Origin: a virus
Direction: 5' to 3' (one strand)
DNA length: 26,689 nt
Virus record (IMG/VR): IMGVR_UViG_3300035703_000376
Location: 1 to 26,689 of that record
Part shown: positions 8,171 to 21,517 of the stretch, piece after piece
Layout of the letters: each line of letters opens with the position of its first letter
How positions within the stretch are numbered: the first letter of the stretch is position 1
Notes under the pieces: generated by a model
What the model was told of the DNA's origin: nothing
The model's input: only the letters and a program-made list of their open reading frames with translations
Database searches by the model: none
Translations under genes and position numbers: made by a program

Positions 8171-8199
8171 ATTATACATAAAAAAAGAGGGGGAGTCAA
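8171..8199 (-). promoter_or_regulatory. Sigma70 promoter whose -35 lies in a terminator loop
   Basis: On the minus strand TTGACT (8199-8194) is followed by a 17-nt spacer and TATAAT (8176-8171). The -35 box is the loop of the terminator hairpin, and the spacer is its 3' arm plus T-tract. The start would be near 8164, giving a short leader to the ATG at 8150. Confidence 0.7.
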
Positions 8200-8210
8200 G
8201 TCCCCCTCTT
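8179..8210 (-). terminator. Strong intrinsic terminator of the riboswitch module
   Basis: On the minus strand a perfect 10-bp stem (AAGAGGGGGA, 8210-8201, with TCCCCCTCTT, 8194-8185) closes a 6-nt loop. It is followed by a run of T residues (8186-8180). It lies just after the stop of the 32-aa gene and separates that unit from the thyX unit. Confidence 0.88.
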
Positions 8211-8213
8211 ATG

Positions 8214-8312
8214 TTATTTTGCTGCCAATAAAGTGGCAAGCGATGCTTTTTTGCGCCTCTCTTCTTTTTGCTTTTGCTCTTTTATGAGTTGCAACACATT
8301 AAGTTTCTTCAT
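8214..8312 (-). CDS. Tiny basic protein, 32 aa, second gene of the riboswitch module
   Basis: Starts at ATG 8312-8310, which overlaps the TGA of the upstream gene by one base. A perfect AAGGAGG ribosome site lies 10 nt upstream. The product starts MKKLNVLQLIKEQKQKEERR and ends KKASLATLLAAK: one long amphipathic, Lys/Arg-rich helix. Its size and charge recall small basic inhibitors such as cyanobacterial glutamine-synthetase inactivating factors, but I see no sequence match to them and only suggest this from context. The terminator follows immediately. Confidence 0.68.
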   Translation of the reverse strand: MKKLNVLQLIKEQKQKEERRKKASLATLLAAK

Positions 8313-8449
8313 CACTTATGCCCCTCCTTTACGAACTTAACACCACGATAGGTTTCATTGTATTGTTGAGGTTGTTGCATCATTTGCTGTTGATACTCAA
8401 GACGCTTTTGAGTATCATACTCTACGCCTCTATATACGATTTTTGCCAT
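8312..8449 (-). CDS. DUF4278-like small protein (45 aa) downstream of the riboswitch
   Basis: ATG at 8449 with AAGGAG about 9 nt upstream; TGA at 8314-8312. The protein starts MAKIVYRGVEYDTQKRL and near its end repeats the motif as 'NETYRGVKFVKEGHK', with a Gln/Met-rich middle (YQQQMMQQPQQ). The paired YRGV motif is the signature of DUF4278, a family of very small cyanobacterial and cyanophage proteins. The leader carries a glutamine-riboswitch-like RNA, a context reported for such small genes in picocyanobacteria. I infer a link to nitrogen or glutamine control; the biochemical role is unproven. Confidence 0.75.
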   Translation of the reverse strand: MAKIVYRGVEYDTQKRLEYQQQMMQQPQQYNETYRGVKFVKEGHK

Positions 8450-8483
8450 TGTTTTTGCTCCTTAAGAAATGAGATGTTTAAGT

Positions 8484-8536
8484 CCCGTTCCTTTGGGCGG
8501 CGTTTCCGTTTGCTATTCGCAAATAGCAAATGAACG
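8484..8536 (-). ncRNA. Second, divergent aptamer-like fold of the leader
   Basis: Directly after the first aptamer (4 nt between them) the minus strand again has CGTTCATT (8536-8529) and ends with GGAACGGG (8491-8484), which can pair as CGTTC/GAACG. Inside is a perfect 9-bp hairpin (TTTGCTATT/AATAGCAAA, 8530-8522 with 8517-8509) and a GGAAACGCC segment where the first copy has AAGTAGG. The same frame with an altered core suggests a tandem but diverged aptamer, or a decayed copy. Confidence 0.5.
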
Positions 8537-8540
8537 AAAT

Positions 8541-8588
8541 TGCGTTCCGCGTCGTCCTACTTGCGTCTCATTTAATGAGATGAACGTA
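8541..8588 (-). ncRNA. Glutamine riboswitch (glnA / Downstream-peptide family) aptamer
   Basis: The minus strand reads CGTTCATC (8586-8579), a hairpin TCTCATT/AATGAGA, then GACGCAAGTAGG (core AAGTAGG at 8562-8556) and GGAACGCA (8548-8541). These are the hallmark blocks of the cyanobacterial glutamine-binding glnA/Downstream-peptide RNAs: a CGUUC/GGAACG closing helix around a conserved AAGUAGG core. The predicted transcription start (about 8587) falls at its first base. The 100 bases 8481-8580 are 48% GC by count in a clearly AT-rich genome, as expected for a structured RNA. Family assignment rests on memory of the consensus; a covariance-model search would settle it. Confidence 0.75.
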
Positions 8589-8593
8589 GAAGT

Positions 8594-8622
8594 ACTATAG
8601 ACTTCTATAGTAATTTAGTCAA
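8594..8622 (-). promoter_or_regulatory. Sigma70 promoter of the riboswitch module
   Basis: TTGACT (8622-8617) and TATAGT (8599-8594) on the minus strand are separated by exactly 17 nt. Transcription from here would start at about 8587, the first base of the aptamer. The leader from there to the DUF4278-like ATG is about 138 nt. Bases 8623-8659, up to the endonuclease stop, hold nothing I can identify. Confidence 0.75.
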
Positions 8623-8659: not shown

Positions 8660-9301
8660 TTATCTTTCATTATTAATAGCAAAATAACCTTTATGGTGTT
8701 TTCTTTTTCCATTCAATACCTTTATAATATGACTTACCGATAAATTATGTTCTTTACAAAAATGCGATATATTTTCAAGGACATATATTTCACCATCAGG
8801 AGATATTACAGTATTAAAATCTCTTTTTTTAATAGTAGTTTCTGGCAATTTCCAACCTTTATGCGATTTTAATTTTCCAGAAATTACTCTAGATAAAACA
8901 TGATTTGTTAGATTATTTTCTCTACAAAATTTAGTAACATTTTCACCTTCATAAATTTTTCCAGTAGGATCCATTATTACAAATTTTTTCCATCTATTAG
9001 GATTACAATATTTTTCTCCACCTAATGTGGAATTGTATCCAAATTTAAAGGTAGAAAAATGTTCTATCCAATATTTTTCTCTTTCATCAAGTTTTTCTAT
9101 ATTAACTTCTTCAATTATCCCCCAAACAAAATTATCAATACCATATTTTTTTATTGCGGAATAAAATTTATTTCTTTTTTTATATTTCAATGCGGCAGTT
9201 TTATGCTTACTTTTTCTTGCATTCAAATTATTAATTGTTTGCCCGATATATTTTTTTCCACTAATAATACAATGAGCACAATAAATTATCCCTTTAGACA
9301 T
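8660..9301 (-). CDS. GIY-YIG homing endonuclease with duplicated C-terminal modules
   Basis: A 213-aa product from ATG 9301 (MSKGIIYCAHCIISGKKYIGQT). An in-frame ATG 7 codons upstream (9322) would be cut off in a transcript from the late box at 9326-9333, so 9301 is preferred. The GIY-YIG motif is 'GIIYCAHCIISGKKYIG', followed by 'NARKSKH' and the helix 'AIKKYGIDNFVWGIIEEV'. The C-terminal half holds two copies of a DNA-binding module: 'DPTGKIYEGENVTKFCRENNLTNHVLSRVISGKLKSHKGW' (quoted in parts: DPTGKIYEGENVTKF, RVISGKLKSHKGW) and 'SPDGEIYVLENISHF..VLNGKRKHHKGY'. It lies between speD and the riboswitch module. Confidence 0.87.
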   Translation of the reverse strand: MSKGIIYCAHCIISGKKYIGQTINNLNARKSKHKTAALKYKKRNKFYSAIKKYGIDNFVWGIIEEVNIEKLDEREKYWIEHFSTFKFGYNSTLGGEKYCNPNRWKKFVIMDPTGKIYEGENVTKFCRENNLTNHVLSRVISGKLKSHKGWKLPETTIKKRDFNTVISPDGEIYVLENISHFCKEHNLSVSHIIKVLNGKRKHHKGYFAINNER

Positions 9302-9325
9302 TTTATTTTTTGAGTTCGGCATTTA

Positions 9326-17341: not shown

Positions 17342-18421
17342 TCACCCAATGGTTGGAGCAGTCAAAGCAACAGGAGTTGCTTCAATGGATGCTAAATCCA
17401 ATGGAAAGTTATGTGCGTTCCGTTCATGTTGAACTTCAATCCCCAAATTTGCCCTATTGAGCATATCTGCCCAAGTAGGAATTGGACGACCTTGATGGTC
17501 AAGAATTGATTCATTAAAATTTAGACCGTTCAAGTTAAAAGATGAAACTGCAATACCCATAGCAGCACACCAAATACCAAATACTGGAAGTGCAGCAAGG
17601 AAAAAGTGAAGACTACGGGAGTTATTAAAGGAAGCATATTGGAAAATAAGACGACCGAAATACCCGTGTGCAGCAACTATTGAATAAGTTTCTTCTTCCT
17701 GCCCAAACTTATATCCATAATTTTGAGATACTTGTTCGGTAGTTTCACGAACAATAGAAGAAGTCACGAGAGAACCGTGCATTGCTGATGCCAATGCACC
17801 ACCAAAAACACCCGCAACACCTAACATATGAAACGGATTCATAAGAATATTGTGTTCAGCAGAAAATACAAGCATATAATTAAAAGTTCCAGAAATACCA
17901 AGAGGCATTCCATCACTAAAACTTCCTTGACCAAAAGGATAAATTAGGAATACAGCAGTTGCAGCAACCGCAGGAGCACTATAAGCAACTGCAATCCAAG
18001 GTCTCATACCCAAACGGTATGAAAGTTCCCATTCTCGACCAAGATAACACCAGACACCAATCAAAAAGTGAAATACCACTGCTTGATATGCCCAACCATT
18101 ATAAAGTGCTTCATCAATAGAAGCAGCATCCCAAAGATTATAGAGATGCAAACCAATAGCATTAGAAGAAGGAACAACAGCACCAGAGATGATGTTGTTT
18201 CCCCACATTAAAGACCCAGCAACGGGTTCTCTTATGCCATCAATATCTACAGGGGGATTTGCAATAAAAGCAATAATAAAAACTGAAGTAGAAACGAGAA
18301 GGCAAGGAATCATCAGGGTTCCGAACCACCCCACATAAAGACGGTTGTTCGTTGAAGTAACCCACTGGCAAAACTGTTCCCAGGGATTAGTATAATTACG
18401 TGTAGCAATTGTAGCAGTCAT
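17342..18421 (-). CDS. psbA: Photosystem II reaction-centre protein D1
   Basis: A complete, uninterrupted 359-aa D1. It has five transmembrane helices and all key residues at standard numbers: Tyr161 (TyrZ), Asp170, Glu189, His190, His198, and His332, Glu333, Asp342 and Ala344 of the Mn cluster. The C-terminal extension after Ala344 is 15 residues ([15 protein letters not shown]), to be removed by the CtpA protease. Residue 130 is Glu, as in the high-light D1 form of cyanobacteria. Phage D1 replaces the fast-decaying host protein so photosynthesis continues during infection. No intron is present. An early sigma70 and a late box overlap upstream. Confidence 0.98.
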
Positions 18422-18679: not shown

Positions 18680-21517
18680 CTAATTAGGATTACTAGAAAT
18701 ACCAACTATATTTTCTATCTCATTAATTCTACGTACTAATTCTTGATTCTCGGCATCTAATTCTTTTACTGCATTTACCAGAATTGGAATTAAATATTCG
18801 TGAGTCAGCCCAAGATGATCTGGATTAGAATCATCAACAATGATATTATTTTCTCCTTCTAAGGAAAGTATTTCCTGAGCACTAAATCCATATCTGATTT
18901 TATCTTCTTTTAATTCACCAGTTTGTTTATCTTTAAAACTATACTTAATTGGTTTAACACCTCTTAGAAAATCTCTTCCATGAGGAACATCACCATAAAC
19001 ACACTTGTAACGAATATCAGAAGGAGTTGTCCAAGCAATCTGAATACAAGCAGTTGTATGAAAACTATTTCCCATCACAATATAATTTCCACAAGAACAA
19101 AGATTCACAAGTCCATCTGGTTCCCCACAGCAACCAAATCCAGACCCAGATCTCCAACCAATTGCAATATTATTGGACGCATTATAGTTAAATCTACCAC
19201 TATTATTTCCAATAAAAACATTGTTGCATCCAGAAAAATTTCCAGAACCAGCATAAGTACCAAAAAAATTATTATCACTTGCATAGCAACCACCATAAAA
19301 ACTATACCCTGCAGCATAACCAATAAAATTATTTCTATATGAATTGTTGGCACTATATCCTGCTGCATCACCTAAAAACACATTACAAGATCCATTAATG
19401 ATAAAATATCCAGCACTACGTCCAATAAAAGTATTTTTACTTCCAGCCATATTACAACCTCCAGCACTGCGACCGAAGAAATTATTATAACTTCCAGTAG
19501 CATTCCAATGACCAGCACAACTTCCAAAGAAATTATTATGACTTCCAGTAGCATTCCAATAGCCAGCATACCCTAAGAAATTATTACAACCACCGGTAGT
19601 ATTGGAAAATCCTGCAGTCTCACCAATAAAATTGTTACTGCTTCCTTCGGTATTGCAACTTCCAGCATAATAACCAAAAAAGTTATTAATCATTCCTGAG
19701 GTGGTAGATTTTCCAGAAGATAGTCCAAAGAAATTATTAGCAAATCCAATTGTGATATTTGAACCAGCGGATTTACCCATAACAATATTATGGGATCCAG
19801 TAGTACAAGCAGTTCTTGTTGCACTTCTACCTGAACACTCACCTAAGTAAATATTATTATCACCTTGATTCCAATATCCTGCATTTAGTCCTATTGCAAT
19901 TGAGTTGCTTTGAGTGGTGTTGCAGTATCCTGAAAATTCACCAAAGAAGTTATTACATGATCCGGTGGTGTTGAATCGTCCTACATTGCTACCAAAGAAG
20001 TTATTACTACCTCCAGTGGTGTTAACTAGTCCTGCCCCAAGTCCAAAGAAGTTATTATCATTTCCAGTGGTGTTGTTGCGTCCTGCAAAACAACCAATGA
20101 AGATATTATTACATCCAGTGGTGTTGGCGCATCCTGCAGAATATCCAAAAAAGTTATTATTAGTTCCAGTGGTGTTGCAGTATCCTGAAAATTCACCAAA
20201 GAAGTTATTACATGATCCGGTGGTGTTGAATCGTCCTACATTGCTACCAAAGAAGTTATTACTACCTCCAGTGGTGTTGCAGCATCCTACATTGGCACCA
20301 AAGAAGTTATTATTATTTCCAGTGGTGTTGTTGCATCCTGCTCGATTTCCAAAGAAGTTATTACGGCTTCCAGTTGTGTTACTTCTTCCTGCATAAAAAC
20401 CAAAAAAATTGTTTTCACATCCAGTAGTTAAAGAAGAACCAGCACCACAACCAACTAAGAAATTATTGGCTGATTTAGTAATAAAACTTATTGTAGTATT
20501 GCAAGATAAGAAATTGGAAGTACAACAAGCACTAATTGTTGTAGAACCACCGCTAGCAGCAGCCCATTCAATTCCAGTACCAGTAGATTTCAATACTTGA
20601 CCATTAGTTCCTGCACTATTATTAACATCATAAAGTTCTCCTCGTAATCTTAAGGCACCATTAATATCAAGTTTTTGTGTTGGATTTGTGGTTCCTATAC
20701 CGACATTACCCTCTCTAGAAATACGAACTTTTTCTGAAATTACATTATTATTTTGAGTACCAAAAGTTAAAAATGTATCACCCCATGCAGTACCACTTTG
20801 AATTTCACTGTAAATATATGATCTACCTTCAGTCAATTCAAGTTTGCCATAATCTCCATATGATGATGATCTACCTACTCTAATAATTGATGTTGCACCA
20901 CCTTGTACATCTAAATTTGCTAATGGATTTGTTCTGCCAATTCCAAGAATACCACTAACATAAGCCCCACCAGTAACCTGAAGTGGTTGTGATGCAGTTC
21001 CTGTATCTGTTTGAGAACCAATTAATAAATTTCTGTTTGAATTAATTCTTACTGCAGAATTATTTCCAATATAAAAATCATGATAAGCATTTGAATGGTA
21101 TTGTATATCCCCGATTGCACCAACACTAAATCCATATTGCTCTGTCCCACTATTATAAAGATAAATTTTTAGTTTATCTCTTGTAGCTCCATTAGAAAAA
21201 TTAATTCCAAGATCAATATATGATGGAGTTGAACTTGATCCACTAATACTGGTTCCTAATAAAATATTATTATTTGATATTAAACTGCTGGCAGTTAATG
21301 AACCAGTCTTAGTTTGATTAATATCACTTCTCAAAAACTGAGAGCTGCTAAGTCCAGAAAGAGTTCCAGCATTATCAAGAGATATAATGTTTTGACTTTC
21401 TCTTACATAAATTTTCTTATCAGCAGAATTAATAGCAAGTTCTCCATCAACCAAATCACTTATAGTTGGAATAGATGATGCAGTGCTAGATCTTTTTGGT
21501 TTGAATATATTTGCCAT
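18680..21517 (-). CDS. Tail fibre/adhesin with 17-residue repeats and S74 chaperone
   Basis: A 945-aa fibre protein. The N-terminus (MANIFKPKRSSTASSIPTIS, then 'DLVDGELAINSADKKIYV') resembles Mtd-type N-terminal attachment domains. Residues about 50-330 hold beta-rich segments with 'LGIGRTNPLANLDVQGG' and 'GNVGIGTTNPTQKLDINGAL'. Residues about 349-784 are roughly 25 repeats of a 17-residue unit, N-N-F-F-G-x-x-x-G-x-x-N-T-T-G-x-x, with about 30 Cys in the protein. From Ser833 (PSDIRYK) to the end is the intramolecular chaperone (peptidase S74), with 'GFSAQEILSLEG' and a coiled-coil end, which trimerises the fibre and cleaves itself off before the Ser. Likely host-receptor binding. Confidence 0.9.
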   Translation of the reverse strand: MANIFKPKRSSTASSIPTISDLVDGELAINSADKKIYVRESQNIISLDNAGTLSGLSSSQFLRSDINQTKTGSLTASSLISNNNILLGTSISGSSSTPSYIDLGINFSNGATRDKLKIYLYNSGTEQYGFSVGAIGDIQYHSNAYHDFYIGNNSAVRINSNRNLLIGSQTDTGTASQPLQVTGGAYVSGILGIGRTNPLANLDVQGGATSIIRVGRSSSYGDYGKLELTEGRSYIYSEIQSGTAWGDTFLTFGTQNNNVISEKVRISREGNVGIGTTNPTQKLDINGALRLRGELYDVNNSAGTNGQVLKSTGTGIEWAAASGGSTTISACCTSNFLSCNTTISFITKSANNFLVGCGAGSSLTTGCENNFFGFYAGRSNTTGSRNNFFGNRAGCNNTTGNNNNFFGANVGCCNTTGGSNNFFGSNVGRFNTTGSCNNFFGEFSGYCNTTGTNNNFFGYSAGCANTTGCNNIFIGCFAGRNNTTGNDNNFFGLGAGLVNTTGGSNNFFGSNVGRFNTTGSCNNFFGEFSGYCNTTQSNSIAIGLNAGYWNQGDNNIYLGECSGRSATRTACTTGSHNIVMGKSAGSNITIGFANNFFGLSSGKSTTSGMINNFFGYYAGSCNTEGSSNNFIGETAGFSNTTGGCNNFLGYAGYWNATGSHNNFFGSCAGHWNATGSYNNFFGRSAGGCNMAGSKNTFIGRSAGYFIINGSCNVFLGDAAGYSANNSYRNNFIGYAAGYSFYGGCYASDNNFFGTYAGSGNFSGCNNVFIGNNSGRFNYNASNNIAIGWRSGSGFGCCGEPDGLVNLCSCGNYIVMGNSFHTTACIQIAWTTPSDIRYKCVYGDVPHGRDFLRGVKPIKYSFKDKQTGELKEDKIRYGFSAQEILSLEGENNIIVDDSNPDHLGLTHEYLIPILVNAVKELDAENQELVRRINEIENIVGISSNPN
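19913..20278 (-). repeat. Exact 111-bp duplication within the 51-bp fibre repeats
   Basis: Bases 19913-20023 are identical to 20168-20278. The offset is 255 bp, exactly five 51-bp (17-codon) units. The copies encode the same 'GGSNNFFGSNVGRFNTTGSC' segment and what follows it. Identity at every third-codon position shows a recent copying event inside an older, diverged repeat array. Confidence 0.92.

Follow-up and report, generated by a model that had tools for sequence, protein, structure and literature searches.

A putative glutamine-type riboswitch of two interlocked aptamers ahead of two small genes in T4-like cyanophages

Introduction

What kind of RNA stands in front of two very small genes in a T4-like cyanophage, and what could it tell the phage about its host? 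We pursued this question in a 26.7-kb virus record (26,689 nt, analysed as a whole and henceforth referred to as the window), where the original prediction had read a self-contained module (promoter, glutamine aptamer, two tiny genes, terminator) through which the phage would sense host nitrogen status. Glutamine-type RNAs are not new to phages: a glutamine riboswitch has been annotated in cyanophage S-CREM1 (PMC9964418), and both phage-borne and tandem glutamine riboswitches are on record (PMC9964418, PMC9004378, PMC9481103). In the reading that we favour, with a probability of about 0.7, the 101-nt leader of the phage transcript is one composite glutamine-type riboswitch controlling two microproteins, for which we infer ligand, switching, sign and targets.

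Results and Discussion

Locus and transcript

Genes recognised by reading the translations of the window (psbA, thyX, phoH, gp32/gp33-like and speD) are those of a T4-like cyanophage, and the riboswitch module lies wholly on the minus strand (Table 1). The matching locus order, i.e. riboswitch, small genes, a conserved DREKLKLI..-type protein, thyX, phoH and exonuclease, was found in S-PM2, Bellamy and S-SRM01, and in syn9, P-SSM7, P-RSM4 and S-IOM18 the composite element described below is located between nrdB and talC. A manA RNA adjoins it in P-SSM4 (L451, 1476-1661) and P-RSM6 (L459, 2456-2641), with scores of 184 and 188 bits. Elsewhere in the window, a PhotoRC-II RNA (18554-18460, 75.3 bits) is found just upstream of psbA (17342-18421), and positions 18680-21517 encode a 945-aa protein with many cysteine-rich NNFFG-type repeats, the C-terminal part of which resembles a tail-fibre peptidase.

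The signals of the predicted transcription unit were all recovered: a sigma70-type promoter, a Shine-Dalgarno sequence ahead of each gene, two genes with one base in common (A8312) and a strong terminator. The proposal that the RNA begins with the first base of the aptamer was also borne out, the -10 box ending 7 nt before C8586. This self-contained layout, from promoter to terminator, is general among related modules. Ninety of 128 carry a promoter matching the consensus in at least 9 of 12 positions with its -10 box 3-12 nt away from the aptamer (most often 7 nt), against 2.8 expected for random positions. On its two sides, the module is bordered by a GIY-YIG-like homing endonuclease frame immediately upstream of the riboswitch promoter (8660-9322) and by a strong promoter serving the thyX side (TTGACT-N17-TATAAT, 11/12, 8199-8171), whose -35 box falls within the hairpin loop of the module terminator.

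Table 1. Features of the riboswitch module in the window, in order of transcription.
Feature	Positions	Strand	Remarks
Promoter, sigma70-type TTGACT-N17-TATAGT	8622-8594	minus	10/12 consensus match
Composite (interlocked) glutamine-type double aptamer	8586-8486	minus	101 nt
Outer P1, 5' strand CGUUC	8586-8582	minus	pairs with 8490-8486
P2a hairpin UCUCAU-UAA-AUGAGA	8580-8566	minus	empty here; gene-bearing in many relatives
Long-range P3, 5' strand GGACGACG	8557-8550	minus	covariation
Inner P1 hairpin GAACG-CAAUUU-CGUUC	8547-8532	minus	compensatory change in L157/L158
P2b hairpin UUUGCUAUU-UGCG-AAUAGCAAA	8530-8509	minus	empty here; gene-bearing in many relatives
Long-range P3, 3' strand CGCCGCCC	8502-8495	minus	covariation
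Outer P1, 3' strand GAACG	8490-8486	minus	
Shine-Dalgarno AAGGAG, gene 1	8463-8458	minus	inside presumed expression platform 8485-8450
Gene 1, 45-aa ORF	8449-8312	minus	two YRG motifs, DUF4278-like, phrog_5049
Shine-Dalgarno AAGGAGG, gene 2	8329-8323	minus	
Gene 2, 32-aa ORF	8312-8214	minus	basic, probably helical, pI 10.5
Intrinsic terminator	8210-8185	minus	10-bp stem, then T run

Two matches below threshold, one rearranged element

As to the RNA itself, the original prediction was right about a glutamine-type RNA ahead of DUF4278-like small genes, a host-like arrangement, but there are two interlocked copies of the aptamer and not one. The Rfam Glutamine model (RF01739, gathering score 35 bits) gives two adjoining placements in the window, at 8588-8539 (33.1 bits; E 1.1e-3 against all Rfam, 2.6e-7 for the single model) and 8538-8482 (28.7 bits; E 0.018 and 4.3e-6), and the Glutamine-II model (RF01704) scores 27.1 bits on the first half, below its gathering score of 33. 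No half therefore yields the above-threshold hit that had been expected, a shortfall apparently due solely to the rearrangement of the element; among 19 public phage genomes, only DSL-LC02 (35.6 bits) and P-TIM68 (35.4 bits) pass the RF01739 cut-off. A family model built from 31 relatives, with the window left out, retrieves the window at 8586-8486 with 93.7 bits (E 2e-20), and the match to the glutamine-type family is not due to chance.

The P1, P2 and P3 helices of RF01739 are all present in the window, in a composite topology. The first Rfam placement holds the canonical 5' half, ACG[CG]AAGUA, and lacks GAAGG, while the second has [GA]AAGG and lacks GUA; the strand that follows AAGUA in copy 1 is complementary to the one preceding [GA]AAGG in copy 2, and the inner P1 joins the 3' half of aptamer 1 to the 5' half of aptamer 2. 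RF01739 has the strands ACGGAAGUA and GAAGGAACG flanking P3, and the outer domain of the window has ACGCAAGUA and AAAGGAACG in their place, with one substitution each (G to C and G to A), both variants being common in the family. Throughout the 128 modules, canonical sequence is kept in the outer strands and not in the inner ones. In the proposed fold, the 5' half of aptamer 1 and the 3' half of aptamer 2 would thus make up one canonical type 1 (glnA) aptamer, comprising outer P1 and P2a, a P3 formed by long-range pairing, and ACGCAAGUA and AAAGGAACG as the strands beside it. The remaining halves, with the inner P1 hairpin and P2b, would form a second domain within the P3 arm that resembles an aptamer in circular permutation and is devoid of the GUA and GAA residues that flank P3.

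Scores below threshold and the loss of these residues from the inner domain would also suit a glutamine riboswitch that has degenerated into a relic, no longer binding a ligand and acting merely as a structured leader. We consider this unlikely, given that the outer strands ACG[CG]AAGUA and [GA]AAGGAACG occur in 128/128 modules (in part because the search pattern selects for them) and are seen again in phage genomes identified by other means, and that the element has been kept together with its promoter and the YRG gene across many phage genera.

Exchange of the P3 strands

The long-range P3 was assessed in 128 distinct viral modules and the 19 public phage genomes, parsed with a pattern that left P3 complementarity free, save that one scan fixed some letters of the P3 5' strand. 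Pair 8 of P3 was always paired in the 95 distinct cores of equal length, as G-C (26), U-A (54), A-U (14) or U-G (1), and ranks second for covariation among all column pairs (0/1000 shuffles); the covariation of pair 1 is likewise high. Two-sided changes affect three of the six standard P3 pairs and 99.4% of the cells are paired, whereas slid strands give no signal. The pair count tells the same, with 13 pairs showing two-sided changes and never more than 4 in the slid controls. At P3 positions 3 and 6, conserved mismatches (A.C/C.A) take the place of pairs. The swapped P3 has at least five of its eight positions paired in all 128 composites, and a local P3 has at most two pairs; the pattern is reversed in 16 ordinary viral tandems, with 3.7 contiguous pairs for the local P3 vs 1.0 for the swapped one. 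Among named phages, P3 reads AGUCG/CGACU in Bellamy, syn9, S-CAM1, S-TIM5, S-IOM18 and ACG-2014g, as well as in ACG-2014f, which the search pattern missed, and AUUCG/CGAAU in P-RSM4. Covariation establishes this architecture: as judged from the sequences, P3 links the 5' half of aptamer 1 with the 3' half of aptamer 2, and these are not two independent aptamers.

A competing reading is an ordinary tandem, in which both glutamine aptamers have a P1 and a P2 to themselves and would exert pseudo-cooperative control as known tandem glutamine riboswitches do. Such tandems are common (157 doublets, PMC9481103), Rfam does place two neighbouring matches here, P1 is nearly invariant across modules so that its strands permit both pairings, and covariance models of the composite and tandem folds nearly tie on the window (93.7 vs 93.3 bits). 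Given this tie, the choice of fold rests on covariation, on energies and on a single compensatory event in P1. Each half lacks a local P3 and the full set of flanking strands, so that none of the 128 modules has a pair of complete aptamers with separate P3 helices, and the P3 strands covary between the halves. The composite has the lower energy in 44/44 comparisons (window, -21.9 vs -14.0 kcal/mol), with unconstrained minimum-energy folds lying below both models and differing from both. Finally, in L157/L158 the inner P1 changes from GAACG/CGUUC to CAACG/CGUUG, a change compatible with the two P1 helices of the composite and disruptive to the two of the tandem; it is the only informative P1 change, the other listed variants fitting both topologies or looking like alternative strand placements. 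Two tandem aptamers are, on balance, improbable.

Because the strands of P1 are four copies complementary to one another, both pairings are open in nearly all modules except L157/L158, and the RNA might itself be the regulatory toggle, with P1 paired as in the tandem fold in one state and P1 and P3 as in the composite in the other. We saw no sign of a populated tandem state, and only the composite pairing is intact in L157, for which reason we give little credence to such a toggle.

The microproteins and their possible role

The first ORF downstream of the composite encodes a protein of 28-56 aa, with YRG motifs in 125 of the 126 modules. The 45-aa protein of the window matches PF14105 (DUF4278) with 19.6 bits (E 0.0012), under the Pfam gathering score of 25.3, and all 12 of its phage YRG homologues examined match at E <=0.01 (best 1.6e-6). 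The YRG family is homologous to the host DUF4278 (hhalign probability 95%, E 3e-8), the alignment covering the first YRG motif only (17 columns). Host glutamine riboswitches are known ahead of DUF4278-type genes such as gifB/IF17 and PMM1846 (PMC6316151). In agreement with this review, we found the ordinary aptamer of cyanobacteria to precede YRG proteins, proteins of IF17 type (YRG plus basic) and IF7-like proteins. The exact composite pattern was found in 0/386 cyanobacterial genomes, with the ordinary aptamer detected in 38 of them by a comparable pattern, a result that is no proof of absence given that an exact pattern misses variants. PirA, a PII-interacting protein, was considered as a relative of the YRG proteins and dropped, its paper mentioning neither DUF4278 nor YRG.

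The YRG and basic proteins probably work together, because they are fused in other phages in either order (YRG-basic in S-CREM1, basic-YRG in Bellamy). It had been proposed that the two small proteins act on glutamine synthetase, and a phage glutamine-synthetase inactivating factor would be compatible with the composite RNA. In the host, IF17 is indeed made under a glutamine riboswitch and joins a DUF4278 part to a basic part of IF7 type, and the phage pairs a DUF4278-like protein with a basic peptide, sometimes in one chain. The comparison of the 32-aa basic peptide family with IF7 by hhalign, however, detected no similarity (probability 0.2), and the 45-aa protein resembles DUF4278, the N-terminal part of IF17, which has been called dispensable for IF17 function (PMC6316151). 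Furthermore, control by inactivating factors is thought to be absent from marine picocyanobacteria (PMC6316151). As the basic part shows no detectable IF7 similarity, inhibition of glutamine synthetase is no more than a possibility, and we regard it as a doubtful one.

Tiny basic proteins (27-65 aa, several unrelated-looking families) were also seen after glutamine-type aptamers in many other viral contigs (L010-L129), and one of these families also stands behind an aptamer in the genome of a SAR11-type host (L281).

Genes nested inside the aptamer loops

The window is the empty form of the element, with neither P2a nor P2b bearing a gene. Relatives often differ in this, 84 of the 128 modules having 101 inserts that extend P2b (59 modules), P2a (42) or both (17) to segments of 139-224 nt (e.g. 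L006 2821-2973, L007 2825-2992, and those of L450-L462 and L330-L449). An open frame is present in every one of the 101 inserts, and its ATG is complete no later than 9 nt into the P2 segment, in or beside the stem. These nested frames are conserved and encode 50-69 aa, and many run into the aptamer: most P2b frames, as read from the sequence, terminate like GAC GCA AAA GCC GAC UGA, i.e. in bases of the aptamer core, and one P2a group ends with GGA CGG AAG UAA. Apart from these core-encoded ends, the frames are under purifying selection, with median dN/dS values of 0.17 and 0.22 and pN below pS in every comparison.

Public phage genomes annotate the nested genes as hypothetical (gp196/gp197 in syn9, 169.2/169.3 in P-SSM4, 179/180 in P-HM2), and their families correspond to PHROGs 504 and 6471, which have no assigned function. 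The proteins are hydrophobic at the N-terminus and share two conserved cysteines, and the P2b family is related to one of the P2a families (hhalign 95%). The predicted fold of a nested P2b protein is helical (mean pLDDT 74) and its best PDB match is no better than E 3.6, so we claim no function for it. A larger insertion separates the aptamer copies by about 550 nt in L167, L168, L171 and L172 (around 1700-2350); in L168 a GIY-YIG-like homing-endonuclease frame fills the loop of the inner P1, and its C-terminus is encoded by the second aptamer.

Judging by the geometry, ligand binding and translation of the nested genes would be mutually exclusive. A broader picture can be drawn from this, in which the riboswitch of T4-like cyanophages, built of two interlocked aptamers of the glutamine type, offers its hairpin loops to genes as landing places. 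The RNA would then choose which proteins are made, either the nested ones, whose N-termini resemble secretion signals, or the YRG microproteins encoded downstream, with the window as its empty form. We hold this picture tentatively, at slightly less than even odds.

Regulation

If the first 101 nt of the transcript fold into a single composite riboswitch, the ligand would presumably be glutamine, as suggested by sequence and host precedent. By analogy with the host, its binding would alter access to the adjacent downstream ribosome-binding site, making the control translational, and would tie the output of the 45-aa DUF4278-like and 32-aa basic microproteins to host nitrogen status. An ON switch is what the host systems lead one to expect. 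Computed exposure of the Shine-Dalgarno sequence with and without the forced aptamer showed no change when calibrated on host ON-switches, so no ON or OFF sign is claimed from thermodynamics.

Significance and comparison with known systems

An aptamer built of two exchanged halves, reminiscent of domain-swapped proteins, is a natural riboswitch form apparently undescribed in the open literature searched. We found no report of exchanged P3 strands, permuted glutamine aptamers or genes inside an aptamer in open-licence publications, a scope that leaves the primary glutamine-riboswitch papers outside. The element is present in such well-studied phages as S-PM2, P-SSM4, P-HM2 and syn9, where it has seemingly been overlooked, since the aptamer is interrupted by genes and escapes Rfam. 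Protein genes within aptamer loops would, if true, represent a new coupling of metabolite sensing to translation, and if glutamine binding holds, phages of abundant photosynthetic bacteria would have a route to read the nitrogen status of their hosts.

Compared with the type 1 glutamine riboswitch (glnA RNA, RF01739), the composite shares P1, P2, the ACGNAAGUA and GAAGGAACG strands around P3 and the place before DUF4278-type small genes, but its P3 spans two aptamer copies, the second of them permuted, degenerate and lodged inside P3. Tandem glutamine riboswitches of bacteria and other marine phages also have two copies side by side, yet each retains its local P3 (16/16 here) in place of exchanged strands. 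Glutamine-II (Downstream-peptide, RF01704) of picocyanobacteria resembles it in the small DUF4278 genes downstream, the nitrogen link and the weak match to the first half, whereas the conserved P3-flanking strands of the composite are type 1. The glutamine riboswitches reported in phages (S-CREM1; Melnitz tmRNA) are likewise viral glutamine-type RNAs, and the available excerpts of these reports describe neither an interlocked fold nor genes within the aptamer. The cyanobacterial gifB/IF17 module similarly places a glutamine riboswitch before a YRG (DUF4278) protein; unlike it, the phage module encodes a basic peptide that is not detectably IF7-like and supplies its own promoter and terminator.
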